A DNA stretch of 25,659 bases from Seison nebaliae. Its lineage: Eukaryota > Rotifera > Pararotatoria > Seisonacea > Seisonidae. Both the position numbers and the translations under genes were made by a program. The notes under the pieces are model-generated. The model was not told the origin of the DNA and ran no database searches. It saw only the letters and a list, made by a program, of their open reading frames with translations. Positions 593-22,339 of this stretch are shown here, piece by piece (within the stretch, counting starts at the first letter, position 1; every line of letters begins with the position of its first letter). Location of the stretch: the NCBI GenBank assembly GCA_023231475.1, contig JALJEE010000576.1, forward strand, positions 1 to 25,659. The letters run 5' to 3'.

Positions 593-1395
593 TTAATTTG
601 GGAAATCAAATTTAATTCGTATTGTCAAACGGTTTGCATAAAATTTGAACATAAACTTAGTCACATACGGAATATTGCATCTGCCCCAAAATGCATATTT
701 TCCATTCACTTCGAATGGACTTCCATGACTTGTCTTTCTGTTTTGAGGACAAGTTTTCAGAGAGGTCTGTTCGTTAAATCCTTTTCCTATACTTGGTCCA
801 AGGTTTGCTAAATATCCGGTTTGCTCGTTCCCAAAAGTACAATTCGAATGCTCAAAATTACCATCAGGCTTATTATACTTGATATAAAAATTTACCGTCA
901 ACGGCCACAATTGACTTAATCGATGTAAAAAATCATTTCCCACCCAAAAATTTTGATCGTTTTCAACCCAACCTTTCGAATAGTCATCCCAAGTTTTTTT
1001 GTAATAAAATTCCGTATCTGAAAATTTTATATAATTGTCCATACCTGTATTCTTAGTTGGGAATTCTTCATATTTCATTAATTGGTCGTAAATGAAATTA
1101 TATTCTATACAAATATTAAGAGGAGTTAAATACCGAATTAATAGTAACTCGAGTTCAAAAATAAATCTTTCTTCATTTTGAATAAATCCAGATTAATTCG
1201 AAATAATTGATAAACTTTCCCTTTTTTCGAATAAATTCCAAAACAAGAAGAATGTTCTTTACAAATTCTTAAATGACAAATTATTTCAGAATTTGAAAGA
1301 GTTTTTTTCGTTTTTAGAATATATTTTGTTGTACTTGAAAAATTGATGAGAAATGAGAATGTTATCAAAATTTTAAGAAAATATCCCAAATACAT
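593..1395 (-). CDS. Secreted fibrinogen-related domain protein, two exons
   Basis: Model: complement of 1149-1395 joined to 593-1104, 252 aa. The intron 1105-1148 (44 bp, GTTACTAT...TATAG) keeps frame; the GTA further on lies after an in-frame stop. Residues 1-21 are a hydrophobic signal peptide. Residues 35-70 contain C40, C45 and C51 in CHLRIC...SSCFGIYSKKGKVYQLF, resembling a short PAN/apple-type module. Residues 110-252 resemble the fibrinogen C-terminal domain: WDDYSKGW (121-128) and FWVGNDFLHRLSQL (135-148) match its DYKxGFG...WLGNDxIHxLT core. The second half is divergent: the calcium-site D-x-D and the GGWW...NLNG block are absent. Such proteins act outside the cell as lectins or adhesion molecules in invertebrates; that role is inferred. 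The fibrinogen match is fair, the PAN match weak. Confidence 0.6.
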
Positions 1396-1750
1396 TTGTC
1401 CAACTTTTCTTTCCGTTAAAAAATATTTTATGTTTCATTATGTTTCTATTTTATACCAATGGGAATTTGATCAATAAATAATAATAATAATTATGGGAAA
1501 GAAACTTGGGACAAGGTTTAGTTTTCAATTCCTTCTAATTAGAATTATGCAAACTGCCAATTGACGAGTATAATTATAACTAAAATTAATATGAAAGTTA
1601 TCGAATAATCAACGAATTATTGAATTACGAACAAGGAGAAGAATAACGAATCTTGTTAATATGAGATTTCTCTTAGTTCTGAATTTTATAAAGGAAAGAC
1701 TCTTTGATAACTATGATTAAAAAACATATTTCTTTTAGAGCCGATTTTAA
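1396..1750. other. Intergenic, 5' flank of the fibrinogen-like gene
   Basis: This AT-rich stretch holds the presumed promoter of the - strand fibrinogen-like gene and the left edge of the MULE relic. I see no recognisable gene or repeat. Confidence 0.4.
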
Positions 1751-2158
1751 GCGGAACAAATCAAGAATTATACTATATGGTATATGGTATATCCAACTTT
1801 TTCAGTCTGTCCAAACGAATTTGTTCAATTATATATCCTGAATGTGCAATTGGAAGGTGGGTGTATAATGACACCTATATTTATTCTAATGAAAAATCGA
1901 TCCCGTGGATCATACGAGGAAGCCTTTAGTTTGTTAAGAATAAAATGGAATTCAATTTCGAAAATGTTTCCTTTGATTTCGAAATGGCCTCATACAATTT
2001 TGACAGGAAAGAGAGTTTGGCCAAATTGTGAGGTTCATTGGTGCTATTTTTATTTCAAACAATCGATATACCGGAAGATCCAGAGTAATGAAGAATGGTT
2101 AACGAGATACGCAAAACAACGTACTTTTCGTGTCGAGGTTAACCGACTTAACAACTAA
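1751..2158 (+). pseudogene. MULE-type transposase relic, DDE core region
   Basis: The open frame runs from after a TAA at 1748-1750 to TAA 2156-2158. It matches the catalytic middle of MULE transposases in order: W-Y-M...TFSVCPNEFVQLY, then CIMTPIFILMKNRSRGSYEEAF (the P-x-x-Y-x-L-x-x-x-K-x-x-x-Y segment), a shortened ILTGKR, then WPNCEVHWCYFYFKQSIYRK (the CxFHFxQ block). The first catalytic Asp (DGTF in active members) is replaced by YPTF, the second (T-D-F-E) is lost in LTGKR, and the H of CxFH is Y. There is no N-terminal FLYWCH or zinc-binding part and no C-terminal part. It is therefore a decayed fragment. A second, non-overlapping part of the same kind of element lies at 21576-21943, and a SINE-like copy follows directly. 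Confidence 0.75.
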
Positions 2159-2300
2159 AAAATTATTAAGGTTAACTGTAGTATTGCTTCAGTATCTGCG
2201 TAATTTATGAAACCTTGATAGTAATACCTGTACATCAAATATGGATATTCATTAACAAATCAACATTAATAAAAATGGTTCTTTAGCATTTTCTGAGCGG

Positions 2301-2435
2301 TTTTTTTTTAAGTGAAATTCCCGTCGGGATAAATTTTTTGATCGATCTCCTCTAAGGTCAGTGGTAGGAGATCTCTACGTAGCGTGAGACGTATGTCCCA
2401 TCGTTGTGGCGTTGGCAACGTGCATAAACCAATTG
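2301..2435 (-). repeat. SINE-like retroposon, copy 1
   Basis: Read on the - strand, the unit runs GCACGTTGCCAACGCC, then CACAACGATGGGAC, AGATCTCCT, CACTGACC, GATCGATCAAAA and TTTATCCCGACGGGAA, ending in a nine-A tail (T run at 2301-2309 on the + strand). The first half matches 20950-21030 and the second half matches 22340-22425. Compared with the 20935 copy it lacks the 5' end of the tRNA-like head. An A tail at one fixed end and a 5'-truncated head are typical of retroposed SINEs. Confidence 0.6.
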
Positions 2436-2440
2436 GTATT

Positions 2441-3589
2441 AAACTATAAAAATAATATTATTTAAACTATAAACATATTATACTAGAAGAGGAATAAGAT
2501 TGAAATGCCTTCCAGAAAGAAGTTAACCTTTCCTTGCAGTCAACCCATATACGAAGAAAATGAAAAGAATTCAATTAATTTGTAACAAAAAGGCATCAAG
2601 TCAACCCTGTTTTCGTAAAAAAGAACCCAGTCAACTCTTATTTTACCAATCAGAAAACTCTTAGAAAATTAATAATTTTTTAACTAATTAAGTAAAGAAT
2701 AACTAATAATAATAACATAAATTGAATACTGATGACTCATCACTGATGAGTAGAAATTCAGAAAAAATTTCTACTTATTTCTACTTCTATTAAAACGAAT
2801 ATTTTCGTTATTCATAAATTTCGTTGTCCTTTTTAGACGGAAACTTCATCATTTCAACCATTATTGTTTTTTTTAATTGACAATGATTTGTAGAGTTGTT
2901 GAACCCAATTAAATATTTACAATAGTTACAATTAGTTATTTCCAGTAAAAATATGTTTAAATGTCATGACTCATACCTCAATGACAGAACTTCTTAACGT
3001 CGGTTTTCAATTTCAATGAAATCTGAATTTTCCATTTCTTGACACATGAGTTACTTTGGGACCTTGACATTTTTATATCAATAATATATCAAGGATGGCC
3101 ATAGATAGTCGGTTGTATTGGAAACTATTAAAGAGAAAAAACTCCCACGAAATGTTCTTGATGTCATGCTAGCACAACAAACTTATATTCATTCCATTTT
3201 GTTTGGAGTTCAATTGGAGAAATATTTTAAGCAAAATTCTAATGATATTATGAAAATGATATTATTTAAAAAGAAGCTCAACTTTAAGAATTAAACAAAA
3301 CCTTTTTATTTTTAGTATATAAATGAACTTTGATTAGAATTTAAATGAATAATAATTTTGATTTGTGGAATTCGATATTTAGAAATATGAAACCACAAAA
3401 AATTAAGGGTCCATTTCATGGAAGAAATATATTTTGAAAGTTTGGCAAGTATATCAAAAACGCATGTTTCCTATCTTGTTTATATGATGCAAGAACATTT
3501 CGCAATACATTTCCTACATATATATAAGTATAATCATAAAATTTGTATTTGTATTCTTTTATTTAAAATAGAATACATTTCTCGTCAAA
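2441..3589. other. Intergenic, with one orphan coding-like frame
   Basis: This is mostly AT-rich non-coding DNA. It contains three loose copies of A/CAGTCAACC (near 2540, 2600 and 2630), a perfect 9-bp inverted repeat GTAGAAATT...AATTTCTAC (from 2750), and an open frame 3109-3294 with protein-like composition (ends KYFKQNSNDIMKM...KLNFKN) but no ATG at its start and no family I recognise. The right end is the UCH gene's promoter and 5' UTR. Confidence 0.4.
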
Positions 3590-4439
3590 ATGATGACTAC
3601 TGGTAAGCAGGAGGAAATTTATTGGAAACCGTTGGAAGCTAATCCGTCGACGTTTAATGAAGTTATTTTCACCATATTTCCTAGGATAATTCATGATAGT
3701 TTATTATGATTGTATAGTATGCGAAGGCTATTGGGATCAATTTGAGTCAACACGAATTTGTTGATGTTTATGGTTTAGATGAAGCATTGCTGGAAATGCT
3801 TCCGAAACCAATCGAAGCAATTATTCTCTTATATCCTCTGGAAGTTTCATTTTTCATAAATTCATTCTCTTAAATGAGACGGATTCTCAGGAAAATACCG
3901 TCGTTGAAAATGATCCGAAAAATAATTCAAAAATATCTCAAAACGTTTGGTTCACAAAACAAACGGTACGAAATGCTTGTGGTTCCGTCGCACTGATTCA
4001 CGCTATTGCTAATCTTAGAAATAAGATTCCATTAGATAGTTTGAATTTCTTAATAGTTTGAACAATTTTTATGATTAATTCGTTAGAAAATGGCGTGTTG
4101 AAGAAATTTTTCGATGAAGTCGATCCGTTGAGTTATGAAGAGCGAGGACACCGATTAGGGAAAGCTTGTGAGCTTGCATCTGCTCATGCTTCGACTGCAT
4201 TAGGAGGACAATCGGAAGTGATGGAAGCGACATCTAAACTTAATTTACATTTCGTCACTTTTGTGGAAGTGGACGGAAATATTTATGAGTTGGATGGTCG
4301 ACTTTCTGGACCTGTCCTCCATCAATGCTCATTGAAAGAAAACGGTTTCTTGAAATGTGTTGCTGCAATTATTCAAGATCGAACAAAGCGAACGAATAAT
4401 ATTAGATTTTCTTTGATGGCGATCGGAAAAAAAGAATAA
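3590..4439 (+). CDS. UCHL3: Ubiquitin C-terminal hydrolase, UCHL1/UCHL3 type, four exons
   Basis: Model: 3590-3661, 3718-3843, 3879-4038 and 4087-4439, 236 aa (human UCHL3 has 230). It cleaves ubiquitin or NEDD8 from small C-terminal adducts in the cytosol. Peptidase C12 motifs are intact: YWKPLEANPSTFNE (11-24), the oxyanion Gln94 and nucleophile Cys100 in KQTVRNACGS, His174 in LNLHFVTFVEVDG and Asp189 in YELDGR. These four residues are each shifted by exactly five from human UCHL3 (Q89, C95, H169, D184), which supports the splice model. Introns are 56, 35 and 48 bp and all begin GTT; the 35-bp one interrupts the less conserved segment after LLYPLE. Start chosen at ATG 3590 (or 3593 directly after). 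It converges on Rab6, with 180 bp between the stops. Confidence 0.88.
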
Positions 4440-4619
4440 AAGAATCTAATTAAAATATTGTTTTAAGTCAAATGAATTTTATAAAATAAAAATAAATTAT
4501 TTAATTATAATAAAAATATAGAGCTGATTACATTTTGATTAAAGAAAATGAGAAAAGATAACGAACGAAAGAAACCAAATAAAGTTTATTTAATAAATAT
4601 TCAGATCTCCCAACTCTAC

Positions 4620-5714
<1,095 letters not shown>

Positions 5715-6517
5715 ATGACAATCAAACGGAACAGAGTCGATAAGAGGATCCGACAAAAGAGGGAGAGTAAATTCTCATTGGAGAATATGAAGAAGAGATT
5801 AGAAGGAAGTGAGTTTCGGAAAATGAATGAAAAATTGTATAAAAATAATCCAAATGAATCCTTTCTCCATTTTCAAAAGAATAAAAAAGAATATGAGAAA
5901 TACCATTCGATCTATAAAAAACAAATTAATGATTGGCCATATAACCCTTTGAACCGAATAATTAAATTTATTAATACAAAGTTTATCTCATTCATTTGAA
6001 ATTATTTTAATTCGATTTAGTCCATCAGATTTCCAGCAAATTCGGTTATTGCTGATTTAGGTTGTGGAGATGCACGACTCGCTAAAGAAGTTAAACAAAA
6101 AAAAGTTTTCTCCATCGATTTAAATTCATCAAACAAATCCGTCATTTGTTGTAATATTGAAAAAGTTTTAATTTTAATTTCTATGAACTTTCTGAATTTA
6201 TCATTCAGACACCGTTAGATAATGAATCGATAGATATTGTAAATTTTTGTCTTTCCTTAATGGGAATTGAACAAACGAATATGATAAACGAAGCTAACAG
6301 AATTATGAAAATTGATGGGTCATTAATCATTACGGAGATATTGAGTCGATTTGATGGATATATCAATATTTTCGTTGAAAAAATGAAGAAACATGGATTT
6401 CAATTAACGGATAAAAAATCAGATGATTGGTTCATTCGATTTATATTCAAAAAGATAGAAACCAATAATTCCAAAACTGTTATCAAATTAAAACCATGTT
6501 CTTCGAAGAAAAGATAA
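5715..6517 (+). CDS. RRP8: RRP8 rRNA-processing methyltransferase, three exons
   Basis: Model: 5715-5980, 6029-6164 and 6209-6517, 236 aa. RRP8 (nucleomethylin) is a nucleolar SAM-dependent enzyme that methylates adenine-N1 in large-subunit rRNA. Features: LEGSEFRKMNEKLYKN (29-44) and WPYNPLNRIIKFI (74-86), both typical of the family; SAM motif I ADLGCGDARLA (97-107); NFCLSLMGIEQTNMI (146-160) with the family's CLSLMG; DGSLIITEILSRFD (170-183). The C-terminus is basic (CSSKKR). Intron 1 (5981-6028) uses the second of two nearby AGs (CATCAG), since only that restores KFPANSVIADLGCGD; intron 2 is 6165-6208. The long N-terminal tail of human RRP8 (456 aa) is absent, leaving essentially the catalytic domain. 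Its 3' end faces the Rab6-like gene. Confidence 0.9.
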
Positions 6518-6759
6518 TGAAATATTCGCTACTTTCATTTCTTTCTCATTTTAAATCAAAAATAAAATTTCTAATTTGAGATTTGGTTTTGACTAATAAT
6601 ATAGTTTTTCTATTAAGAATTTCTAGAATTATTAAATTCATCTAAAAAATTGTGAATTTCATTTGAAATGAAATAATATATAAAAATATATATATAGTTT
6701 ATAGTTCCATGAAGCAGGAAATTAAAATGTTTAAATCGAATAATAATTGTTAAAAATTA

Positions 6760-7386
6760 TCAGCAATAACACCAAGCATTTTGAGCTTCTTTCGTTGGTT
6801 CTTCTACTGTAATATTTTCGACACTTCGAGGTATCTGATCTGCGTTAATATCTTCCACACCTGGCATTGACTTTCCAATATTCATAAATAATTTTGATAT
6901 GTTCTCACCGGTTTTCGCACTGGTTTCAAAATATTGAATTTTATTTTTCTTCGCCCTCGCTTCACCTTGTTCCGTTGTTATTTGTCGTTCTTGAACTAAA
7001 TCGATTTTATTCCCAACCAGAAATATCAGGACGTCATTTCCTCGTTTTTTTCTAAAATCATTAATCCATGTTTTAGTTTCGTCGAAAGATGATTTTGAAG
7101 TAACATCATAAACGATAACGGCAGCGGTTGAATCCTGCATATAGGACGGAGTCAGAGCACGAAAACGTTCCTGACCAGCTGTGTCCCAAAATTGAAGACG
7201 AATAGCTTGTTCTCCGATATGAATCGTTTTACAAAGGAAATCTATTCCAACAGTTCCTTCATATTTGTCTTCAAAGGAATCATAAAGAAACCGAGTGAGA
7301 ACGCTCGTCTTTCCCACGTAGTGTTCCCCAAGAAAAATTATTTTGAACTTTTTTAATGGAAAGACCATATTCTCCTTTGCAGACAA
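6760..7386 (-). CDS. Diverged Rab6 paralogue
   Basis: Intact 208-aa intronless frame, clearly Rab6-derived: FPLKKFKIIFLGEHYVGKTS (9-28) shares FPLKKFK with the neighbouring Rab6 at 4620-5222. P-loop GEHYVGKT (20-27), [20 protein letters not shown] (67-86), NKID (126-129), ETSAK (154-158) and a terminal CYC prenylation motif are all present, so it should bind and hydrolyse GTP and be geranylgeranylated. Switch I/II residues differ from Rab6 (YEGTVGIDFLCKT for [23 protein letters not shown] for [10 protein letters not shown]), which probably changes effector choice. Met7 aligns with the Rab6 start and is an alternative initiator. The two paralogues lie on the same strand with RRP8 between them, suggesting a local duplication. 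The function is inferred. Confidence 0.88.
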   Translation of the reverse strand: MSAKENMVFPLKKFKIIFLGEHYVGKTSVLTRFLYDSFEDKYEGTVGIDFLCKTIHIGEQAIRLQFWDTAGQERFRALTPSYMQDSTAAVIVYDVTSKSSFDETKTWINDFRKKRGNDVLIFLVGNKIDLVQERQITTEQGEARAKKNKIQYFETSAKTGENISKLFMNIGKSMPGVEDINADQIPRSVENITVEEPTKEAQNAWCYC

Positions 7387-7872
7387 TTAACAACCTGTGG
7401 AGGATTCTTATTTGTTGATAATTATACTGCCTTAAGAATGACAAAAGCTAAAGTGACAACTCATCTGATGTTGGGAAATGAAGAGATTTATTTAATGGGA
7501 ACATTATTATATAAAAAATACTTCTAACTCAAAGGAGAATAATGAAAATTTCTCAATGTTCCGTCAAAATCTTACTGCTTAAGTTCATGAAGTTTAGAGA
7601 AATTCAATTTTATTTACATTTATTCATCTTCTTTCATTTAAACAAAACTTTTTCTAGAACTCATGTAATGTGACCTTCAACAGATAATAAAATAAAATAA
7701 GTATACTTCTCCTAACAGAAAATAGATCGAATAAAGAATAAAGATAAATTCTCATCAATTTTAATTGAAAAACATCTTTTGAAAACATTTTGATATTTTA
7801 TAAAACTGTAATATTGGTAAATATGAAAATTTTTATGTATAATACAATTTTTATGTGAAATGAATAAAAAAT
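7387..7872. other. Intergenic between GPCR 3' end and Rab6-like 5' end
   Basis: This 486-bp AT-rich stretch has both neighbours on the - strand, so it carries the GPCR's 3' UTR and the Rab6-like promoter. I see no coding frame or repeat. Confidence 0.4.
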
Positions 7873-8856
7873 TCAAAAACGACTGGTGGTTTTGAAACAG
7901 TTATGGAAAAGTTTCTGAAGAGCTTTATAGAATAGAAGAGAACCAAAAAATAATCTAAAGAATTGCAATGAATGATTGAAAATAAGAAAGTACCGTGCTA
8001 TAATAAAATAATGGAAATTCCTTTCGAATTCGATATGACCCAAATAGAATAAAGTTTCAAAGATGAAGATTGGTGAGGAATTGATAAGAAAAGTAATATT
8101 TGTAACGATGAGTATTCTTGATACATTAGATAAACGTTTCATTCGTTTACTTTGAGAATGATTCGATTTGAAAGAAGTTGAATTTGTGGAGCGGGTTATA
8201 TGATTTCTAATAACGGGTTGTATTATATTCTTCCGACTTGTCAGATGATGAATAATCAATATTGAACTAGTAATTAATGAGAGCATTGGAATGACGACAT
8301 ATGTTATAATAAGAATAACACTTGCTATCAGAATAGTAGCATGGCAAATATTTATTGGACCGATTTTAGTTAAGCTTAAATCGTTGATATAATCGATGGA
8401 TAATATTAGTGCAACGACAGCAATCATCAATACTTGAAAATTGATGTTGCAGATAATTGAGAAGATTTTCAATTTCTCTAACCGTTTAAAACGGATTTTC
8501 TTCAAATTTATTATTTTCAATATACAACAGAACGTGGTAATGAAGGCTGAGAGATGCATGAGCAAAATCCTTAATCCAACCAGTAATCGACAACATAAAT
8601 GCAAATAATTCTTTGGTAATTGAGAATGATTGAAAATGGCAGGTACTACATTGAGAAATAGAATCAATGTATCAATATACGTTTGGATTTCGAGACAATA
8701 AAAAATCTTCTTCCGCTTCAACGAACTAAATCTGATGACGATGGTGGCAAGTATATTGGTAACGGAAAAAATTATAATGGTAATTGGCATTAAATAATGA
8801 TAAATCAGTTTTGCCACTTGAAAACCATTTTGCGGGAGGTTTGTCGAATTAAACAT
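7873..8856 (-). CDS. Rhodopsin-family (peptide-receptor-like) GPCR
   Basis: Intronless, 327 aa, with seven hydrophobic segments at about 18-42, 55-77, 90-114, 130-155, 173-203, 246-270 and 283-308. The N-terminus carries an N-glycosylation site (NST, 3-5) and no signal peptide. C88/C89 before TM3 and C171 before TM5 can form the usual extracellular disulfide. TM6 reads RILIVTNITFLINSSPIFIF, similar to invertebrate FMRFamide/neuropeptide receptors. The third intracellular loop (about 204-245) is basic and Ser-rich. The standard activation motifs are weak: the DRY position at the end of TM3 is not recognisable (FCCILKIINLKK) and NPxxY in TM7 is replaced (FNHSLQFFRLFFGS). The C-tail has C320, a possible palmitoylation site. 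Ligand unknown. Intactness suggests a working but diverged receptor. Confidence 0.7.
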   Translation of the reverse strand: MFNSTNLPQNGFQVAKLIYHYLMPITIIIFSVTNILATIVIRFSSLKRKKIFYCLEIQTYIDTLILFLNVVPAIFNHSQLPKNYLHLCCRLLVGLRILLMHLSAFITTFCCILKIINLKKIRFKRLEKLKIFSIICNINFQVLMIAVVALILSIDYINDLSLTKIGPINICHATILIASVILIITYVVIPMLSLITSSILIIHHLTSRKNIIQPVIRNHITRSTNSTSFKSNHSQSKRMKRLSNVSRILIVTNITFLINSSPIFIFETLFYLGHIEFERNFHYFIIARYFLIFNHSLQFFRLFFGSLLFYKALQKLFHNCFKTTSRF

Positions 8857-9623
8857 TTCTATTAATCTATTTTCCAGAAATTTTCGTTTAGAGAGAATAT
8901 GTGAAGATAAATATGAATGATATGATGATAAATTTGTATTGACTTAAAAGGAAGAAAACAAATTCCTTAGAGCAATATCTTCTTTTAGGAGGGACATTCT
9001 CATACGATCCTTTCCTCCTATGTGAAAGAAATGGATGATGATTATTTTATTGAATGACGTAATTTATGGAAAGTAAATAGCTCATATTTCTGCACTCAAC
9101 TTTTTTCCGGAATATTCCTTCAACCTATTAATATATGTGTTAGGAGAATATGTTTTCAATGAGTCGTTTGAATGAAATACAATGAATCTTCTCAAATAAT
9201 TATTTGAATTCTTCAACAAATAATTCTTCCTTCAAAATTTTAATTAACTTATGAATAACATACTGTATTTATACGTTATATGTCATTTATCCGATTCGAT
9301 TTGAATATTGACGACATTTATATTGAACCATTCTATTTACAATCAAAAGAGTCAACATTATTCGAGGGATAGTTAAAAGTGTAAATTAAAATCTAAATAT
9401 CAAAAGGAATATCAGACCGAAAATTCGACTTTTCGTGTTCAGGAGACAAATGGAAACTCGTTTGGAAATCCAGTGGAATATATGAAACAAAATGGAATTA
9501 TTCAATCAGAACATACGTCTGATAAATTACTATTGGAATGGAAATTAATTGTTTATTTCAAAAGATTTAGTCGAAAGAAATAATTTCAGCGATGCTGGAT
9601 AATTTCATGTTTATTATGACCAC
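8857..9623. other. Intergenic with a possible small + strand gene (9280-9619)
   Basis: This separates the GPCR start from the CFAP57 stop. An ATG frame at 9280-9372 (30 codons, MSFIRFDLNIDD...LFEG) is followed by an open stretch 9377-9580 with protein-like composition (FRVQETNGNSFGNPVEY). A GTT donor at 9551 and AG at 9588-9589 would add a short last exon stopping at 9619, five bases from the CFAP57 stop. The two frames cannot be joined by any GT-AG pair I can find, so this is either a decayed gene or a gene whose structure I am missing. Confidence 0.3.
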
Positions 9624-12600
9624 TCATATTGGAGGTAACGATGCCGTACCCTTTCCATCATTAGTTATTGATGTCATAGAAGAAGCTGATTTGGGAAGAA
9701 TGGTCCTTAATTTTTGAATTTCATTCTTCTGTTCTTCGATGACTGATTCGAAATTCTTCTCACGTTCAACGACCAAATGGTTATCTATTCAAACGGAAAT
9801 TGAATATTTTAATATGAATTTAATTGAATTCTTTTCTAACTTTTATAACGGTTTAATATCTCGCTAAATTCTTCAGTTGTTCTAGCTGCAGCATTTCGCT
9901 TTATTCCTAATGCTGCCTCCAAATCAAATATTTTCTTATTTGCTTTTGTTAAGGCCGCTCGAAGATTATTCAATTCTTCAATCAGTATCACATTCTCTTT
10001 CATAACACGAATTTGGTCTTGACGTTGTCGTTCCACATCTTTCGTGGATTTGACTTTTAACGATTGAACAGTTTGTTCGAGATGTTGTCGCTGTCTCGAA
10101 TTCTCCGCTTCGATATCATTCGTCGCTTGCACTTTCTCTTTCTTCTCATAACGACAATATTTCTCTATTAAATTCTTGAAATGTAATTTTAATTGTTTTG
10201 GCTCCGTAACGAATTCACTCACGTTATATATGTCCGATTCGATTTTTTTGATGGTATTTTCTAAGTCTTTCTTCCTTTCTCGTTCTCTTTTCAACTCCTT
10301 CTCCAATCCAGTTAGTTTCTGTTTAAATTCCACAATATTCAAATCTAATTGATTATTCTGTTTGTAAAACTTCTCCAATTCGCCTTCCATCTCGTCAATT
10401 TGAGTCTTTTGCGTAATAATTTCCATTTCTCTCGGTTCGATTTTCTTTTTCAATTCTTTATTCTTGTAATCCAAAACGAATTTGAATTTTTCCAGCTCCT
10501 GATTCTTTTTCTTCAATTCATAAATTCGTTTCTCCTTCTCTTGAATTGTATCGTCGCGTTCCTGAATTTCTTTCTTCAACCCCAAAATGTCTCGTTCTAA
10601 ATTGTTAATATTATTCTGCAATTTCGTCGCTTCGCCTCTCATACCTTGAATCTTCTCATCGTTTAGTTTCAATTCATTCTCCAACGACGTGAATTTCTTT
10701 TTTAATGTTTCTCTTTCGGACGACAATTTTGATTTGACCTCTTCACTATTCTGCAATTGATGTTCGTAATTCGTTTTTATTATTCGAATTTCTTCATCTG
10801 CATCTTCTTCTATCTGTTTCTTCATTTCCTCATATTCCTTCAAATTCGTATTAATTTCCTCTTGTAACTTCAAATGGATTAAAGAAGTAGAGAAGGTTTA
10901 GAAGGAAATCAACTTGATTTTTTGTCGTCGTTAAATTATCGATTTCATTCTGATGGAGATTATGTAATTGTTGTAAATCACTTTCCCGTTTATGTTCCAT
11001 GGTTTGTAGTCGTCGTTCATAATCTTCTTGTAAATGCTGATTCTTATTTTGCAATTCTTGATGTTTCTCATATTCCAATCTCAATTTTTGTTCATTTGTC
11101 GATTCTATGAATTTGGAAAGGATTAGTGAGAAAAGTAAGGAAATAAGACGAACGCATTTCTTGTAATAATTCCTGGTATTTCTTATTCGTATCTGCTAAG
11201 ACGTCATTATAATGAACATTCTCTTTCTCTTTATCCGTTTTCAGTACTTGAATGTTCGTTTTCAGACTCTCTAATTCATGCATATATTGATCAGATAAAC
11301 TATCCATCTTTTCTTTGTGATTCATTTCTTTCCGTCCCAATTGATATTCATGATCAGTTTTCTCATCAATAATTTTTTGTTCCAACTCATGTATTTTGGA
11401 ATTCTATGAAAAGAGTACAAAAATGAATGTCTATTCCAAAACATTTTGAACTTTATCTTCCAAATCGGATTTAGTTATAAGAATCTCCTCAGCCCAAGTC
11501 ACCTCTCGGTCTCTTTTCAATCCTCGATTATCTTTGTCGGTTACCTTCCAAATTATAATCGATCCATTCATATCACAACTCAACAAATATTCATCAACCA
11601 CATTAATTCGCATCTAGTACAATTCGATTAGAACTAAAAAATGATAAATAATCAACTCGAATGACTGGTGATGTATGTCCAATATATTCGGTGTATTCAT
11701 CTTCCGCCTCTTCGACTAATGGAAATTTGTAACTTCGAATTGTTCCTCTGTTCGTTCCGCAAAATAACAGTCTTCCTGAATTCGACAAAACGACCGTTGT
11801 TAAAACTATATTTTCAGTAGTTACTTGTAATTGTTTTGTAATCTAACGAACATTTATAATGATAATGGAAAAATATATGACGTGCAAAAAACTAACAGCC
11901 GATCCATTTATTTCTTTAAGTGTCCGATCTTTCCCTACTGCGTAAATTAAACTTTTTTCATCATCGAATGTTATTCCGGTATAAGCGCAGGATTTCAAGA
12001 CGCATTCTTTCGTCCTCTTACCATTAATTACATCCCATTCATATACAGCACCTTTAGCATCACAAGACATTAATATCGTATCCGCTTGATTCCATAATAA
12101 TTGATGAATCTTAAAAAATTTTAAATGAAATAAAATTTTGATTGAGAACAATTGTTTAAACAGTTCCATTATGTCCTTTTAGAATTGCGATCGTCTCAAA
12201 AGAAATGGTCGAATGCACTTGTATTATATTCCCATGGACTGCTGCAAAATATGCTCCTCCATTACTGAATTGACACTAAGAATTCGATGAGATGAGAGAG
12301 ATGAGAATTGAATTGTAAATGAAAGAAAAAACTTCCTTGCAAGAACGGATGTTGAATTCTTTGAAATGTCTTATATCATCAATAAGAATATTCATTAATC
12401 TCAATTTGTTACTAAATCCCACCAAAATGTAGAGACCACTTGGATGTAAAGAGATACAAAGAGCCTCCTCCGCGAAAACTTTATAAATTTCCAGACGACA
12501 TTTCTCATAATCCCATATGCGAATAGATCGATCATTGGAACATGTGGCAACTAATGCCTTTCGTGCACAAACATCCATTCCAGTGACAGCATTCGAATGA

Positions 12601-13862
12601 AATGAATGATTAAAATAATCACAATAAATTGTTTCGGACTAAATGTAAAATAAATGAAAAATATGAACTTAGTTTAAAAGATAAAATAAAACATTCGATA
12701 CATCGATTTTGGAGAAGGTTATCGAACACAATTGACTTTTATTTGTGCTAAGAACCAAAGTTTCTTCTGAACTATTTATGGAAAATGATGTAAAAATTTG
12801 TGGAGTCGTATTCATTTCAACGGAATTATCTGAAGGAATTCTGATATTTCTTAATATTTCCATTTTCTCTTTATCATACATAATCGCTCTTTCATAACCA
12901 CAAGAAACAATAATTTCTTTAGAAGAAACAATTATTGCGTTTATATTGGTATTCCCATCCGCCATATCTGACGGTTGTGACATTGTTGTTGCATTGTAAT
13001 TCAATGTGTTTAAAGCCATCTCATCAGTTTCTGTTGCTAGTCTACAATTAATTTGAATTATTTTAAAGTAACTAAAATATATAAAACGGTATGATTGTAT
13101 CGGACCATTTCAGTTCACCTTTTTCATAGATAATCAATTTTCCATCTTCAGTTCCAGCAAGTAACTGATCCGAACTCAACCAGCAATGGCAACTGAACGA
13201 TTCTTCTTGTTTGTAATTCGCTTCAACTTTTAGATTCGAATCGATATATCGATACATCCGATATGTCTTATTTCCGGTACAACAAATTAAAGTGTTGTCA
13301 TTTGGATCAAATGATATCTAAAGTTAATTTTTATATATATAATATATATATATATTAATGATTAAACCATATTATATTAAATACATTAGATTTATGATAT
13401 AACCTCATTAATATGAACAGGTGGTGTTAAAACAACACTCGCCTGTTCCTTTGCTTTCTCCCAGATCCAATAAGATAAAACTTGTTCAGTTTTGTTTTCG
13501 GCTAACGAAATTATAAATTTGGAGTCAGAAGAAAATTTAATAGAAATAAATCCATTATTCTCTTGACTAATCAATTTTCTTCGTTTCAAAGTATGTGCGT
13601 CAAATATGGAAATTGTGGATTTATTCGCTAAGCTTTCAGCAACTGCAATATTCCGATGATTAGAACTAATGGCGATACATGTTAATTGTTGCGCTACATC
13701 AGTACAAGGTATCGTTCGTTGAGTATGTTGATGTAAGTTATAAAGAACTAAATGGTTGGCAGCAGGATAGACGCAAGTCTGCTCGTCTATGAACGCCAGG
13801 CAGTTCTTAACATCAGTTCGGAAGCCGAAAATATATTTGCATTGAGCGATACCGATCGACAT
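9624..13862 (-). CDS. CFAP57: CFAP57 (WDR65), axonemal WD-repeat/coiled-coil protein, 12 exons
   Basis: Model (complement): 13404-13862, 13088-13317, 12693-13041, 12333-12638, 12162-12275, 11897-12109, 11657-11842, 11443-11613, 11154-11403, 10914-11104, 9841-10867, 9624-9784; 1218 aa (human 1250). CFAP57 is a ciliary axoneme protein linked to inner-arm dynein assembly. Residues 1 to about 650 are WD repeats; conserved blocks include CLAFIDEQTCVYPA, ATCSNDRSIRIWDYE, LHPSGLYILVGFSNKLRLMN, GAVYEWDVINGKRTKECVLK and IIIWKVTDKDNRG. From about 655 to 1165 it is a long coiled coil, very close to vertebrate CFAP57 at KEIQERDDTIQEKEKRIYEL and KNQELEKFKFVLDYKNKEL. All 11 introns (39-86 bp) begin GTT and keep frame. 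The stop is TGA at 9624-9626. It appears intact and complete. Confidence 0.95.
13331..13357. repeat. AT microsatellite in CFAP57 intron 1
   Basis: A nearly pure TA dinucleotide run inside the 86-bp first intron of CFAP57, which makes that intron the longest in the gene. Confidence 0.8.
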
Positions 13863-14218
13863 GTTTATTTATAAATCAAATATACTTCGTCGTTAACGAC
13901 AATAAATCAAAAATAATATTTTTATTATCTTTAACTATCATCACATAAATATAATTCAATTTTAAATTAAAAGCCTGAATTTTTCTATTTTAAGCAGTAT
14001 TTCAAAACTATCGTTATCTATCGTTAATATTATTTTCTTGTGTTTTTATTTTCCACATGATCTCATCCGCTTTTTCCTTTTTTACATCACTTGTAAGACG
14101 TTTATGTAAGAAGAATTGTAAAAAGTTTAATAAATTAATTTCTATTTACTCAACAGAGTTGTGAATGACGTTTAAGAAAATAAAGAATAAACGTTACTAA
14201 TAAAAATAATTATTTAAA
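13863..14218. other. Intergenic between CISD2 3' end and CFAP57 5' end
   Basis: 356 bp of AT-rich DNA carrying the CFAP57 promoter and the CISD2 3' UTR (both - strand). No frame or repeat seen. Confidence 0.4.
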
Positions 14219-14698
14219 TTACTCTTTCACTACCAATGGACCAACATTGTCACCTGTGGCAGCGTTATGTTGATTGTGTGCGCCATCACAATAAGGAAAC
14301 TTCAATAATTAAAAATAAAATTTTTATAAAAAATCACAAAAATTATGAACTTTCTTTGATTTCCAACAGCGACAAAAGGCTTTCTTTTCACCAATATCTT
14401 CCACATCTACTATATCTACCACTTTCTCCTTGCTTAATTGTATACTTCGATTAATTATACTCTGATTACATCTATTTATTTGTTGACGAGTGTCATAATG
14501 ATAGTATCCCAAATATCCAATTCCAACAGTGACACCAAAGAATGGTAATAATCTTCCCCAATCGGATACTATTAACTTAAATAGAAGTCGTTCGTTTAAT
14601 AAAGAACAATAAACATGATAAGTGAAAGAATCCTCCAAAAGTTTTTGGCAAGGGTAATTGCGCAAAGTAATTTGCAAAAGATTGTGTCCAGAAATCAT
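14219..14698 (-). CDS. CISD2: CISD2-type CDGSH iron-sulfur membrane protein
   Basis: Model (complement): 14615-14698, 14351-14575, 14219-14299; 129 aa (human CISD2 135). It binds a redox-active 2Fe-2S cluster and sits in the ER and outer mitochondrial membrane. The membrane segment WGRLLPFFGVTVGIGYLGYY (34-53) matches the WLRLLPFLG of CISD2. The cluster motif CRCWKSKKFPYCDGAH (96-111) supplies C96, C98, C107 and H111 and is split by the 51-bp intron 14300-14350. The protein ends HNAATGDNVGPLVVKE, the family's usual tail. The first intron (14576-14614, 39 bp) is inferred because removing it aligns YHLIVSDWGRLLPF with the family; it is a multiple of three and has no stop, so retention would insert 13 residues without breaking the frame. 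Confidence 0.9.
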
Positions 14699-16073
14699 GA
14701 ATTGAGTTCATATTTGTTTAACGAAGTTCCTTAAGATAATTCAGTTCTAATGAAGCTAACTTTTTGAATTCCCATTAACAGTAAGTTCTAAATTAATAAA
14801 CTAATCTGCATAATTTCTGTTCAGAACCATATTTTTTTGTTATTTTTTAAATTAAGAAAATTAATTATATTTTCTAATGATGTATATGGGGAACTGATGG
14901 AAGATATTTATTTAACAAATTATTATGCAACAATTTCACGTACTACTAATTTCGAAAGACCTGTTGTACCAGATGAGTGTAAGCTTCAAATTTCAAAGTT
15001 AAAGTTGAGTCAACATAATGTTTAAATGTGTAAAGGAAGTTTTAGAAGAATTTACCATCTATGATTACCAAATTTTTTAGGGGTATCAATGAAACAATCT
15101 ATGTCAAACTCTGATATGTATATGGGCTTTCTGTTCACACGTTTCTCCAAATTCCTAATGTGAATTGAACATGCAGAGGACCTCTTTTTATATAAATAGA
15201 GAGAAATAACTAATGAGAAAGAATTCCATATTTCCTTCTTGATTATATTTAAATTAATTTTCTATCGTATCATTCCTATATGTTAGTGGGAGATTCTTGG
15301 GAATTTTCGTTCATTCGTCCATTGTAGTTTGAGAAAAATTTATTATCGGTATCATTCCTCACTTAATTCAAGTAATGACATTGATGATTTGAATAAGAAC
15401 ATTGAACGTTTTCCCTTCAATTTTGTGATAAACAAAAACAAATTGTTTCCCTACATAAATACTTCTATTTTCAATTTGTATTTTGAAAGGAAGAAAAAAT
15501 CCTATTACATTAAAAAGACTAATTGCAATTCATTTCTTTCATTTTCATTTTTTTTTCCATTTTAAAGAGAGTTCGTTTATCAAGTTCATAATCAAAAAAA
15601 TTCGCTTACAAACTCAGATGAACAACAATTCAGTGGTTGGATGATTATTTTATGTTCTACTTCCTCATTCTATTTCATTTTCCTTTCTCACCAACGTAGG
15701 ACGACGACAGTAGTAGTGGTTACTTTAATCGGGTAATGTTAAGTGGAAATATTGGATTCTTTGGAGAGTACAATATCTGCCGTGCTCAACATTGACTAGT
15801 TCGTCATTATCAATCAACGCAACAATCAGTCGCTATTTATCAGATAGACACCGCGGACTGAGGCAACGAAATTCAGTATCAATCTTTAAAATAATTAAAA
15901 CTTCTTCTCCAAACCAAATCTCCGTACCTACCAACATTTTCTTCTCATACTAATCCGTCATCTTCTACAAAGTCATTTAATTATTTTTCCTGTTTAAAAT
16001 AATTAATTTACTAATCATTCGTTTACCTCATACTCCATTCTACTATTGCGTCTGGTGAACAGTGGCGTTAATC
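14699..16073. other. Long intergenic region, divergent promoters of CISD2 and PRL
   Basis: The two flanking genes point away from each other. The right part (about 15660-16073) is probably the PRL promoter and 5' UTR, ending with an in-frame TGA at 16056. Open frames at 14897-15025 (from ATG, 42 codons, ends LKLSQHNV) and around 15329-15565 (no ATG) have some protein-like character but match nothing I know. No repeat or RNA gene seen. Confidence 0.35.
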
Positions 16074-16824
16074 ATGAAAGGTAAACCGCAAGCACGAAAT
16101 ATCAATCGAAACAATTCGGACGAAGGTAAAACACAACCAAAGAATGGACATTTGATCGCCACCCGACAACCCGTACCCCATTATACTCGACCACCATTCT
16201 GTTTGATTGAGTACAAGAACTTCCGATTCCTCATCACTGATCGACCTACTAATGCGTCATTGGAAAATTATGTGAAACAAATTAGTTCTTATGGCTGTAC
16301 TGATGTCGTTCGTGTTTGTGAACCAAATTATGAAATCGATAAATTATTATTGAATAATATCGCTGTATTGGATCTACCATTTCCTGATGGTGGATGTCCA
16401 CCCGTTACAATTATTCGACAATGGTTCCAATTATTAAAAGGTCGATATAAAAGTAATAAGAGTGCATGTGTCGCTGTACATTGTGTTAGCGGATTAGGAA
16501 GGTTAACTACATGACTTTCATTGTTTTTTTTTCATAATTTTTTTAGAGCGCCCGTTATGGTTGCCATAACACTAATGGAATTGGGCTTAGGCTATTTAGA
16601 AGCCGTTTCACGTGTACGTGAAAAGAGGCATGGTGCGTTAAATTCAAAGCAATTGGACTATCTCGCGAAATTCAGACCTTCGGGACGATTGAAAACTCGA
16701 AAGTTTTCTCTCGATTGTTTTGGTAGAAATTGGTTGTAGTTGACTACAATGAATTACAGCACCATTTATTTAAAAAAACATTAACAATAGTGATAATTTA
16801 AGAAACAATTGTTTCCTTATTTAA
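16074..16824 (+). CDS. PTP4A: PRL/PTP4A prenylated tyrosine phosphatase, three exons
   Basis: Model: 16074-16501, 16547-16702, 16803-16824; 201 aa. PRL phosphatases are membrane-anchored dual-specificity enzymes that also bind CNNM magnesium transporters. The core is intact: RFLITDRPTNASL (51-63), VVRVCE with the regulatory C82, DLPFPDGG with the general acid D105, HCVSGLGR (136-143) with C137 and R143, and ALNSKQLDYLAKFRPSGRLK (173-192). HCVSGLGR is split by the 45-bp intron 16502-16546. If translation read on past 16702 the protein would end CFGRNWL without a CAAX box. Splicing GTTTTC at 16703 to AAG at 16801-16802 instead gives RLKTRKNNCFLI, a polybasic stretch plus CAAX aligned with RNNCCIQ of human PRL-1. 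There is a 40-residue N-terminal extension of unknown role. An upstream in-frame stop fixes the start at ATG 16074. Confidence 0.88.
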
Positions 16825-18407: not shown

Positions 18408-19072
18408 TGGATTTAGTGAGAGAAACGAAAATAAGTAACTGAATATTTAAAAAAAAATGAAACAAAAAAATTTTCGGAAAGTTTTTCGCTTTTTCCACAA
18501 GTCCTGTTTTATAGAGAATGACAAGATTGGTTCATTTCTTTAGTTCCATTTAAATTCCATTTACGAGTAATTAAAAATTTTAAATAATGTCCTTTGTTAG
18601 AGATTGGATAAATTAGTCTAATATGAATAATTTCAAGGAGGCTTTAGTATTTCGACTTCAATCCCACTACATTGAGATTGTGATGGCGACGATATATTTT
18701 GGACAAATTTTATTATTACTATTATTTACAATTAGAGAATGATAGTTCTACAAATTATTCCTGTTTATACTATAAACCGTTTGTTGGTTTGTTCATTATT
18801 GAAGAAGAAGGAAATAAATTATCTTGAAAAAATGAAACAATTTATCTAAACTAAAATTTTAGAAAAAAAAATATAAAGTAAATTATTTTTATTAAAGAAA
18901 TTTGTAATATTATAGTTATTGCTATAGTGACGTGCAACGGACACTGTCCTTCGACTAACATAATAACATAACAGCTAATGTTAATTTGTTTCATAAGAAA
19001 AAGTTTCTGAATCTTCAATATTTTTGTTTATTAGTTTGTTATAGATCAATATTGACATTAATGACGTAAGTG
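18408..19072. other. Divergent promoter region; contains a GGACAcTGTCC palindrome
   Basis: 665 bp between two divergent genes. CAACGGACACTGTCC at 18935-18949 contains a perfect GGACA-C-TGTCC palindrome, related to motifs clustered at 25346-25449. A short upstream frame (ATG ACG TAA, 19061-19069) lies just before the next gene's ATG. Confidence 0.4.
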
Positions 19073-20086
19073 ATGAACTCAGCAATTTTATTCCACGAAA
19101 AACGACCACAAAACCGATTATTCTCCACAAGTAAATGTAGAAAATCGTCGAATGGCAACAATAGGAGTAAGAGAAATAGTACGAGAGTAGTCTCTTCAAC
19201 CATATCATCAGCCACATCAGATGTTATCAACGATATTGGTATGGATGATCCGACAGAAAATTATCGACTACATCTTCATAATCAACGGAAAGGAAAGTCT
19301 CAAAATGGATTTTATTCGAAGCAAATGCTCAATTTTCAACCAGTCAGTACTCTATCTACCTCATTTCGAAAGACGTATAATAACAATGGTATAATAAGAC
19401 GTAAACCGCCTTCATCTTCCTTAAGAGAATTGAACATATCAGATGATGAATTATCACCATTGACCATTGGGTCAAAAAAATGTTCAAAATTCATTCCAGC
19501 CAAATCAAAACCACAATCTGATAAGAAGAATCAACCATTGAATCATTCCTTGTTCAACTTGGTAATTCATAATTCTGCATCAAGCTCAACATCTAGGAAT
19601 AATATCTATAATACATCTCACAAATACGATGAAACGAATTGTCTATCAAGCAGTAGTTCTCCAACAGACTTTCCTTTGGTTGAAAAGCAACTGTCACCTT
19701 TACAAAAGATTAATTCTTCACATAAATTACGTGGAATGGATATAGTTAATAAATGCGATGTTGGTTACACTATAAATAAACAGAATGGGAAAAACATGAA
19801 TCAACCGTTATACTCTCTCCAAAATGACACTAGTGTCCCTAATAATTCAGTTAACGAAATCTTTCCTAACTTTACTACTCGAACTGTTCCTACTTCCAAA
19901 ATCAATAAGAATACTAGTATGAATAATAAGAATATTAATAAAATACGAAGGTTCTCTGTATACCAAGATCCACTTGTTCATTGTTCTCAAGACATGAAAA
20001 GGCGAATTCGAGATATCAATAAGCATGTACAGGAAACAATTGAATCTGAAAAGAAAATTGGCCGGCGTCCTTCGAAGAAACGATAA
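19073..20086 (+). CDS. Uncharacterised basic, Ser/Asn/Lys-rich protein
   Basis: 337-aa single-exon frame starting at ATG 19073 (a GTG three bases earlier is not a credible animal start). I do not recognise it. It is low-complexity and probably largely disordered: runs such as SSSTSRNN and LSSSSSPTD, no hydrophobic segment, no signal peptide. The N-terminus (KCRKSSNGNNRSKRNSTR) and the end (KKIGRRPSKKR) look like nuclear localisation signals. The C-terminal 45 residues, RRFSVYQDPLVHCSQDMKRR followed by a charged helix-like stretch, are the most ordered-looking part and the best candidate for a conserved motif. It might be a nuclear or cytoskeleton-binding regulator, but there is no direct evidence. 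A very long frame in AT-rich DNA supports it being real. Confidence 0.65.
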   Translation: MNSAILFHEKRPQNRLFSTSKCRKSSNGNNRSKRNSTRVVSSTISSATSDVINDIGMDDPTENYRLHLHNQRKGKSQNGFYSKQMLNFQPVSTLSTSFRKTYNNNGIIRRKPPSSSLRELNISDDELSPLTIGSKKCSKFIPAKSKPQSDKKNQPLNHSLFNLVIHNSASSSTSRNNIYNTSHKYDETNCLSSSSSPTDFPLVEKQLSPLQKINSSHKLRGMDIVNKCDVGYTINKQNGKNMNQPLYSLQNDTSVPNNSVNEIFPNFTTRTVPTSKINKNTSMNNKNINKIRRFSVYQDPLVHCSQDMKRRIRDINKHVQETIESEKKIGRRPSKKR

Positions 20087-20850
20087 AATAATATTAGTTT
20101 AATTCTTTGACATATATGTTAATAAACTTATTGCTTTCAATTGACTTATTACGAAAAAAAACTGTCATATTCGAAATATCGGAAGTTATATATCTCTATT
20201 TTATTATATATTGGATGTTACATGTATAATTCATTTCTAATTTTATTACCTCAAATTTTAATACTCATATGTATTTATTAATTGTCTACTTTTTATTTTC
20301 TGTTCATTGTGACCAGAATATGTAGTTCTCATTTTATTGTTATCTATCGAGCAATAAATTCAGTAAGATAAAGGACTATAACAAACATAAGCTAAAATTT
20401 GTTGTAGATAAAAATTAATAAAACCACCAAATTAGACTCAATGAATCTAGGGTAATTGGTAGATCGATTATCCAAAGTACATTTATGTATATACGTTTGA
20501 CAGTTTTTTTGATATTAATATTTGTTTACATATTCGTACAGTATCATAACTTCTGTCGGATTAGATATTTTAATAGAAGTACTTCTCATCATATGATAGT
20601 CTTATTCAAACTGTTTAAGAAGGTGGAATAGGATAAATTTCTATGTTGCAACTAAACAATTTCAATAAAATTCTTACGTTAGGACTAATAATATAAACCC
20701 TATTATTGCAAACGTGCCTGGTTAAACAGAGAACGTGGAAAAACTTTTACGATGAGTGGACATGGTAAATCGAAACATGGGAATTTATGCGTTTACAGCT
20801 CGGGATACATTTGATATAAATTGCGATATAAATCTTCGATATTTGATTTT
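20087..20850. other. Intergenic, 3' flank of the unknown gene
   Basis: 764 bp of AT-rich DNA with no coding frame of substance. It leads into the repeat cluster that starts at about 20852. Confidence 0.4.
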
Positions 20851-20851
20851 C

Positions 20852-21035
20852 TCGTGCGTACCGCAGTGGTCTACGTACGTTCCACGCATATTTACGAAAT
20901 AACGTACCTTACATCTCATTAGAGTTATATTGGGTCGTGCGTAGCACAGTGGTCTATGTACGTTCCCAACGCCACAACGATGGGACACATGTAGAGATCT
21001 CCTAAAACTGACCGTAGACCAGTCGATCAAAGCAG
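20852..21035 (+). repeat. SINE-like retroposon heads, two in tandem (copy 2)
   Basis: A 32-bp block starting TCGTGCGTA at 20852 recurs at 20935 with three mismatches, 83 bp apart. It contains TAGCACAGTGGT (20942-20953), which matches 11 of 12 positions of the tRNA A box TRGCNNAGYNGG; a matching B box is only weakly visible around 20980. After the second head the sequence continues CCAACGCCACAACGATGGGAC, AGATCTCCT, ACTGACCGTAGA and CGATCAAA, matching copy 1 (2301-2435, opposite strand). The 3' A-rich end seen in copies 1 and 3 is missing, so this copy is truncated or recombined. Confidence 0.55.
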
Positions 21036-21943: not shown

Positions 21944-22101
21944 CCAAATTGTCTAATTAAATTTCCACAGTTCTTCCATAAAATAATGTTTTTAATTGTT
22001 CTTAATAATTCTAAATTTTTGAATAATTTTTTGGTTATATTATTTCTTTAATCTTTAAACCATAATTAATCTTAATCAATTAACACATTTGATTAGAAAC
22101 A

Positions 22102-22336: not shown

Positions 22337-22339
22337 CCA

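Follow-up and report, generated by a model that had tools for sequence, protein, structure and literature searches.

The animal 5' splice site follows the consensus AG/GTRAGT, the slash being the exon-intron boundary; the 5' end of U1 snRNA is taken as nearly frozen, because U1 has to read thousands of donors simultaneously. One study on yeasts and one on a tunicate sought a U1 change to match altered splice sites and, in the accessible parts of their reports, found none (PMC10581693, PMC13326754). In Saccharomycotina the donor has switched between A and U at +4; for species with shifted donors the available text gives U1 ACUUACC and U6 ACAGA as invariant, with no snRNA compensation (PMC10581693). 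In Fritillaria borealis 95% of introns lie outside GT/AG while the 5' end of U1 is kept strictly intact, a change in U1 being, for its authors in the portion of their text at hand, a route not taken (PMC13326754). Donors of Entamoeba histolytica introns (GUUUGU) carry G at +5, and no U1 snRNA is recognised there according to the accessible parts of the sources (PMC6018208, PMC6085484, PMC13292270). In the diplonemid S. specki a variant U1 carries a C-stretch, and its complementarity to the canonical donor is about that of normal U1, as far as the available description goes (PMC12621601).

The seisonid Seison nebaliae, a tiny marine relative of the rotifers, can be set beside each of these. It shares with F. 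borealis an apparently genome-wide departure from standard animal splice sites, and with the yeasts an alteration at a single donor position inside a clade. It resembles E. histolytica in its short introns and usual U at +3, but falls outside the Entamoeba type, since G at +5 occurs in only 11 of 62 sampled donors and four U1 genes, some with a compensating base, are present. As in S. specki, conserved and altered U1 5' ends coexist; in the accessible account, however, the S. specki alteration is unlike the Seison change, in which one base has been fitted to a shifted donor. Against metazoan U1 (RF00003) and U2-type introns, Seison is alike in U1 fold, GT...AG ends, U6 ACAGAG, U5 loop and U2 branch region; it differs by the 5' end AUACUAACYUGG in three of four U1 genes, by T for A/G at +3 and by the scarcity of +5 G. 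Our main reading, at a probability of about 0.83, is that the donor has moved from AG/GTRAGT to roughly AR/GTT, with little preference outside GTT, and that most U1 genes would have changed to match. We read this as a genome-wide shift of the 5' splice site with a compensating change in U1, inferring both junction use and U1 expression from sequence.

The case began with a window of 25,659 nt, the whole stretch analysed, in which an earlier note had placed 21 introns in six genes, all starting GTT and ending AG. That observation is confirmed: script reading of the rebuilt models gives GTT and AG, and hence the GT and AG ends of U2-type introns, in 21/21. The note's tally of the fourth base held for GTTA (6); for GTTT, GTTG and GTTC, put at 11, 2 and 2, the recount is 9, 3 and 3. 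Its remark that GTAAGT at 19066 apparently goes unused also stands, none of the window's four GTAAGT occurrences serving as donor in the six gene models.

Support for individual introns is uneven, coming from an NCBI model, from homologue alignment, or from frame and motif alone. The weakest of the 21 is that of the fibrinogen-like gene (1105..1148, minus strand, 44 nt, donor TCGA/GTTACTAT), placed by frame and the GT-AG motif only. The UCH gene (plus strand) has three introns. The first (3662..3717, 56 nt, TGAA/GTTATTTT) is crossed by an alignment to the UCH-L3 structure and has an expectation-maximisation (EM) posterior of 0.86 (donor 0.98); the second (3844..3878, 35 nt, GGAA/GTTTCATT) lies in a poorly conserved stretch, where the alignment to a solved relative has a one-residue gap; the third (4039..4086, 48 nt, GATA/GTTTGAAT) is placed by EM and by a solved relative aligned through the junction. 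In RRP8 (plus strand) the 2zfu alignment spans intron 1 (5981..6028, 48 nt, CAAA/GTTTATCT) with one 1-residue gap and intron 2 (6165..6208, 44 nt, AAAA/GTTTTAAT) without a gap, CNIEK/TPLDNES standing against CDMAQVPLEDES. In the CISD1/2-like gene (minus strand) the CDGSH structure runs ungapped over WKSKK/FPYCDG at intron 2 (14300..14350, GAAA/GTTCATAA; EM posterior 1.00); intron 1 (14569..14614, TCAT/GTTTATTG) is placed by frame and GT-AG, and its spliced start presumably fits the CISD2 N-terminus. In the PRL phosphatase gene (plus strand) exon 1 alone matches PRL structures up to the final residue before intron 1 (16502..16546, GAAG/GTTAACTA; EM posterior 1.00). Intron 2 (16733..16790, 58 nt, ATTG/GTTGTAGT) yields the C-terminus NNCFLI, a CaaX-type end (CFLI); PRL phosphatases end in CaaX.

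The remaining 11 introns belong to CFAP57 (minus strand), whose GTT-spliced protein equals NCBI SNEBB_006235 (1215 aa) letter for letter, as the GTT-spliced protein of the two-intron U1C gene equals its NCBI model exactly; both models may be predictions whose training used this very signal. A 70-homologue profile made 10 of the 11 CFAP57 introns testable, and in all 10 the best GT-AG choice was GTT. Five of these have GTT as the sole frame-keeping GT-AG class, each at the same place as in the NCBI model: intron 1 (13318..13403, 86 nt, GTTATATC), intron 4 (12276..12332, GTTTTTTC), intron 5 (12110..12161, GTTTAAAC), intron 8 (11404..11451, GTTCAAAA) and intron 10 (10868..10913, GTTGATTT). Where a rival class exists, GTT leads by 89.7 to 67.6 bits over GTC at intron 9 (11105..11153, GTTCGTCT), by 127.2 to 117.7 over GTA at intron 3 (12639..12692, GTTTTATT) and by 68.5 to 68.4 over GTC, a near tie, at intron 2 (13042..13087, GTTTTATA), all three as in the NCBI model. 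The model join of intron 6 (11843..11896, GTTAGTTT), also that of NCBI, scores 138.3 bits, a slightly different GTT-AG join 139.2 and GTC 124.2; at intron 7 (11614..11656, GTTGATTA) the GTT-AG join tops all 632 motif-free candidates. Intron 11 (9785..9840, GTTAGAAA), which had no candidates in the profile test, is the same as in SNEBB_006235. Motif-free joins other than GT-AG outscore the model in nine of the 10 introns, by 1.4–15.7 bits; because of this, and because half the introns have no rival class, homology by itself does not fix the exact CFAP57 boundaries.

Beyond the window, donors were estimated by EM from 243,282 bases, 0.7% of the genome (1,759 of them counted twice, as L010 lies inside L027; L010 contributes no introns to the EM lists); 15 of the 20 long stretches came from contigs chosen for carrying snRNA genes. 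The coding model was of order 2, chosen after trials of orders 2 and 3; order 4 had yielded only 63 exon pairs, an insufficient number. Of 231 core pairs, EM took in the 90 whose two cores each reached at least 7 nats; 85 of these offered a GT-AG candidate, 68 had a donor posterior above 0.9, and composition was counted on the 62 of the 68 that measured 30–100 nt. With both sites flat, the run recovered G-T-T in a shifted frame, the intron starting one base late; for this reason AG, GT or both were imposed. When only AG was imposed and the donor left flat, GTT took 57.3 of 90 (ATT 7.0, GTA 3.0), with G at 0.74 in +1 and T at 0.86 in +2; with GT-AG imposed it took 73.4 of 85, and with GT imposed and a flat acceptor 75.2 of 88, the acceptor failing to converge on AG. 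Holding +3 to +8 flat left GTT in 124/174 joins and in 52/63 confident short joins. When dinucleotides were imposed in turn with AG, total likelihood was higher for AA (1791.5) than for GT (1772.2), totals that are not comparable, because candidate numbers differ, and from which nothing is drawn.

The shift that the earlier note proposed thus extends past the window in the EM sample, 59 of the 68 confident donors being GTT (GTC 5, GTA 3, GTG 1). As to whether T at +3 is fixed, it is predominant and not absolute: nine of the 68 are non-GTT, and the usual purine at +3 is confined to 3 of the 62. Two GTA introns and one GTC intron look real: those of ERO1 (GTAACT), XPNPEP (CAG/GTAATT) and a LITAF-like gene (GTCTCA). 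The weakness of the exon AG before the donor, also noted earlier, is borne out by position -1 of the 62 (A 25, G 19, T 11, C 7). No U12-type GTATCC donor occurs among the 85 listed EM introns, ATATCC being outside their reach since GT was imposed; a search of the genome for U12 snRNA gave no match, nor did its control give a signal.

Four U1 snRNA genes are recognised in the genome, at 112.9, 112.4, 108.0 and 97.4 bits (RF00003 gathering cut-off 69.5), and a 25-base U1 5'-end pattern allowed two mismatches finds the same four only (reversed control, none). Three read AUACUAACYUGG instead of AUACUUACCUGG, with A for U at position 6 (A6); the canonical end AUACUUACCUG is kept in one, L002, which lies 1.5 kb from an A6 gene. 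The compensating change in U1 or U6 that the earlier note suggested, with weak U1 dependence as its alternative, is present in U1, in 3/4 genes and at the base opposite +3, and absent from U6, whose ACAGAG is unchanged. As position 6 faces intron +3 U, the substitution restores Watson–Crick pairing at +3. By duplex energy with the 62 donors A6 U1 is better than canonical U1 in 54, equal in 4 and worse in 4, a preference largely set by +3 itself. On this evidence the A6 copies are U1 homologues whose 5' ends have changed; they have diverged from one another (pairwise identity 64.3–67.3%), yet retain both A6 and the predicted U1 fold. The contigs that carry them (C208, C647, C762) also bear GTT introns.

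One alternative accepts the donor shift and makes it independent of U1: weak dependence on U1 in a genome rich in AT would have allowed T at +3, the donor would be recognised by U5/U6 and proteins, as has been proposed for Entamoeba, and the U1 changes would be incidental. Positions +4 to +6 are almost without signal (0.06–0.15 bits), so U1 pairing must be short, and the accessible text on Entamoeba describes GUUUGU donors with no recognised U1 RNA (PMC6018208, PMC13292270). Yet T stands at +3 in 56/62 sampled introns against 45% in intron bodies (p = 9e-14), and so looks selected rather than drifting, and the exact compensating base has been kept in three U1 genes at about 65% identity; we consider this alternative unlikely. 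A second holds that the A6 genes are pseudogenes or minor variants and that the work falls to the one canonical U1, tolerant of the +3 mismatch. In its favour, the most distinct upstream element is that of L002: a 13-mer that it has in common, at like spacing (-98/-94), with a U2 gene (chosen by eye from these two genes; best match in 2000 shuffles, 11/13). The upstream regions of the U1 genes L001 and L003 show no match to it. Against it, the A6 gene L004 shares TTACAGTTCRCACTTTCT, also chosen by eye, with the U5 gene (-80/-78); of 41 predicted base pairs, 15 have changed on both sides across the U1 copies with pairing preserved; and all three A6 copies retain the AUUGCAC loop, which we take to be the U1A site, whereas L002 has CAGAGCAC in its place. 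This makes the second account improbable.

A third locates the cause in accessory factors or in the modification of U6 (METTL16, SNRNP27K), linked elsewhere to 5' splice-site preference. In the available text on yeasts these are tied to how splice sites evolved at +4 (PMC10581693), and +4 C is raised in Seison (18/62). The yeast effect sits at +4, however, not at +3, Seison has matches to a METTL16-type domain, SNRNP27 and LUC7, and U6 is canonical (ACAGAG); this cause is very improbable. That the GTT preference comes from method or AT-richness is scarcely credible: GTT does lead the GT triplets at candidate sites (201/418, true sites included), but the donor-flat EM run had no GTT prior, implanted GTR introns came back as GTR (n = 84; GTA 65.1, GTG 17.9, GTT 0.9; 78 recovered exactly), and protein conservation tracks the joins in RRP8, CISD, U1C and DDX39B, all three of whose GTT introns are ungapped at the junction against solved DDX39B.

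The preferred reading, a donor shift compensated in U1, joins the GTT introns, three diverged and structurally conserved U1 genes with the matching base, and unchanged U6, U5 and U2 sites. The changed U1 genes would be expressed and dominant, and would choose the 5' splice site; a U1 gene would have been duplicated and the changed copy have taken over as donors went from A/G to T at +3. Given the near absence of signal from +4 to +6, U1 probably pairs over a short stretch, from -2 to +3, and the low count of +5 G, although it exceeds the G content of intron bodies (8%, p = 0.009), makes pairing past +3 weak; U5 loop 1 on A-rich exon ends would probably help so short a duplex. The canonical U1 still present may be a relic, may serve the few GTA/GTG introns or may have another U1 task. 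More tentatively, and with the odds against it, one might suppose a reassignment of the splicing code by U1 duplication, in which A6 U1s read nearly all donors while the ancestral U1 persists alongside. Two or three U1 types may then split the introns, those with GTT going to A6, the few with GTA/GTG to the canonical U1, and those after A-ending exons to an A6 copy with C9 changed to U. The analogy is with duplicated tRNAs, which permit codon reassignment.

The open PMC literature, a corpus without subscription papers and supplements, yielded no report for Seison of either GTT donors or an altered U1; in the available part of the Seison genome paper (PMC8351084) 'donor' is absent, 'splic' occurs once and 'intron' twice. 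If RNA data bear the reading out, Seison would be a natural whole-genome compensatory experiment, with old and new U1 genes side by side. Three questions would then open to test: how an RNA reader and the many sites it reads can evolve in step, to what extent donor choice lies with U1 and not with U6/U5, and whether additional U1 genes formed the bridge. Default splice models may misannotate the S. nebaliae genome.

Some minor observations may be added. A fourth ATACTAACTTGG match, on C629, lies outside the U1 gene set. The complement of a perfect canonical donor, ATACTTACCTG, is present at 3 places in 36 Mb and its reverse at 34, and ATACTAACYTGG has 4 matches against 10 for its reversed form, controls crude enough that both counts are hints only. 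Seison U1C differs from the sequences of ten other animals by R28K, K29N and E32G, of which K29N is common to Pomphorhynchus.

On rebuilding, all 21 introns of the window start with GTT and end with AG, as the earlier note had held; the fourth donor base divides them into GTTT (9), GTTA (6), GTTC (3) and GTTG (3). Their best support, and the strongest check, is the match of CFAP57 to the NCBI annotation, a model that may be RNA-based or predicted: splicing out its 11 introns gives SNEBB_006235, with identity over all 1215 residues. Exons of UCH, RRP8, CISD and PRL agree with proteins of known structure; at RRP8 junction 2, CNIEK/TPLDNES aligns without a gap to CDMAQVPLEDES, and splicing PRL intron 2 yields the C-terminus NNCFLI, of CaaX type. 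Frame and motif are the sole basis of the fibrinogen-like intron and of CISD intron 1. A profile built from 70 homologues made 10 of the 11 CFAP57 introns testable: GTT ranked first among the GT-AG classes in all 10, with one near tie (68.5 versus 68.4 bits), and in five it alone among those classes preserved the frame. When no motif was required, rival joins beat the model by 1.4–15.7 bits in nine of the 10; thus, protein similarity locates an intron, but cannot alone set its final base.

GTT also prevails elsewhere in the assembly (36.03 Mb, 846 contigs, of which the window is contig C522). Besides the window, the sample took in seven smaller loci and 20 longer stretches, each of ~10 kb, for a total of 243,282 bases (1,759 of them double-counted). 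It covers 0.7% of the genome and is not random, as 15 of the 20 long stretches come from contigs bearing snRNA genes. A coding model was trained first; splice signals were then learned by expectation-maximisation (EM) from 90 of 231 pairs of adjacent exon cores. With an AG acceptor imposed and twelve donor columns flat, GTT was expected in 57.3 of the 90 (ATT came next at 7.0; GTA reached 3.0); with GT-AG imposed, in 73.4 of 85, and the 68 donors with posterior >0.9 were GTT 59, GTC 5, GTA 3 and GTG 1. With positions +3 to +8 flat, GTT appeared in 124 of 174 joins, and in 52 of 63 among confident short joins. As a positive control, introns with GTAAGT, GTGAGT or GTATGT donors were implanted into coding stretches (n = 84): 78 were recovered exactly, with GTA at 65.1, GTG at 17.9 and GTT at 0.9. 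Outside the window, DDX39B has three GTT introns, all three junctions aligning ungapped to solved DDX39B; U1C contains two GTT introns, with MPK/YYCDYCDTYLTHDSP as the reading across one of them, and its spliced protein equals NCBI SNEBB_003905 at all 115 residues. A genome-wide shift, as first suggested, is thus borne out across the sample as a prevailing state, not an exclusive one: 9/68 donors are not GTT, and the exceptions in ERO1 (CAA/GTAACT), XPNPEP (CAG/GTAATT) and a LITAF-like gene (GTCTCA) look real, with Pfam matches spanning the joins.

Donor composition was taken from 62 introns of 30–100 nt. Position +3 is T56 C3 A2 G1, a share of T far higher than in intron bodies (45%, p = 9e-14); T is therefore strongly preferred without being fixed, six of the 62 having another base. 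Information at +4 to +6 is 0.06–0.15 bits per position, with A20 T20 C18 G4 at +4 and A24 T16 G11 C11 at +5, where G is still enriched (18% versus 8% in intron bodies, p = 0.009). The exon end does depart from the usual AG, with A25 G19 T11 C7 at −1 and A38 at −2. From these counts, AG/GTRAGT is largely lost on either side of +3.

Four genes exceed the cut-off of the Rfam U1 model, and a 25-base 5′-end pattern allowing up to two mismatches found exactly these four over 36 Mb (reversed control, 0). L002 has the canonical 5′ end, AUACUUACCUGG; L001 and L003 have AUACUAACCUGG, and L004 has AUACUAACUUGG, all three with U6→A (hereafter A6). In standard numbering, U1 position 6 lies opposite intron +3; A6 then replaces a U:U mismatch on a GTT donor with an A:U pair. 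A passage of PMC10581693 places position 5 opposite +4. A single contig carries L001 and L002, at a distance of 1.5 kb, which puts both U1 kinds in the same genome; GTT introns also occur on the contigs that carry the A6 genes. A 5′ splice-site shift with a matching U1 change, which the earlier note had raised as a possible compensation, is supported by these sequences. One alternative it offered, a changed U6, finds no support in the unaltered ACAGAG box; the U5 loop is GCCUUUUAC, and GUAGUA is kept in the U2 genes inspected. Loss of METTL16, SNRNP27 or LUC7 as the cause is excluded, since matches to the METTL16-type domain and the other two were found. Among the U2 genes, L013 scores 78.7 bits against 139.1 and 135.4 for L011 and L012; it may be a variant or be undergoing decay.

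Paralogous U1 genes are usually much more similar than 62–67%. Here, identity is 64.3–67.3% among the three A6 genes and 62.3–65.0% between A6 and canonical; yet 15 of 41 predicted base pairs show two-sided, pair-preserving changes. The A6 state is thus probably old, retained while the remaining U1 sequence diverged, and none of the four has the look of a decaying copy. The AUUGCAC loop is retained in the A6 genes, and L002 carries CAGAGCAC at that place. L004 additionally has C9→U, which would fit A at exon −1; in the sampled introns, A at −1 is not enriched over exons at large (p = 0.43).

Against the A6 reading counts the clearest upstream element, TTATCACACTTTT, which belongs to canonical L002; an identical one precedes a U2 gene at nearly equal distance (2000 shuffles matched this 13-mer at best at 11/13, the 13-mer having been chosen from those same two genes). 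L004 and the U5 gene share TTACAGTTCRCACTTTCT, picked by eye, at −80/−78; L001 and L003 gave no clear upstream-element match. With so mixed a pattern, the sequence does not settle which U1 is most abundant.

If U1 carrying A6 does serve these donors, its snRNPs would most likely occupy a short site, from about −2 to +3, with A6 opposite the +3 U; handover to the unaltered U6 would follow, and U5 loop 1 may assist on A-rich exon ends. U1 duplication probably freed a spare copy to change, the donors following afterwards. Seison U1C (L039, 1443–1670) has R28K, K29N and E32G within an otherwise conserved zinc-finger region; K29N also occurs in Pomphorhynchus laevis.

Seison nebaliae belongs to Seisonidea, a group of the rotifer–acanthocephalan clade living on Nebalia crustaceans. 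Entamoeba has GUUUGU donors and no recognised U1 RNA (PMC6018208, PMC6085484, PMC13292270), whereas Seison has four U1 genes. Fritillaria has altered splice sites with unaltered U1 5′ ends (PMC13326754); in Seison, three of four are altered. Yeasts with a shift at +4 keep U1 ACUUACC invariant (PMC10581693), unlike Seison, with its shift at +3 and altered U1. One diplonemid U1 has a C-stretch 5′ end (PMC12621601), in contrast to the single-base A6. Searches of an open-access library yielded no genome-wide donor shift paired with a U1 change, which does not prove absence in print.

Elsewhere in the window, the ORF at 22978–25245, used as a query, returned one protein, SNEBB_006239 (1026 aa, 19070–25245). 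This seems to join two unrelated ORFs (19070–20086 and 22954–25248) over ~3 kb with a GTTAAC donor near 19860, read by eye, and is probably a false fusion. Further features were noted by eye. A dispersed repeat containing CCCGTCGGGATAAA and GATCGATCTCCTCT, in three copies and both orientations (2280–2440, 20930–21030 and 22330–22410), has the appearance of a short element, mobile or dispersed. Units of GACGAAATCACCG form a tandem-like array at 22110–22330, and an imperfect inverted repeat on TCCGACAATGTCC / GGACAATTGTCCG lies at 25340–25460. Two Rab-like GTPase genes (4620–5237 and 6760–7386) are adjacent on the same strand, each one unbroken ORF.
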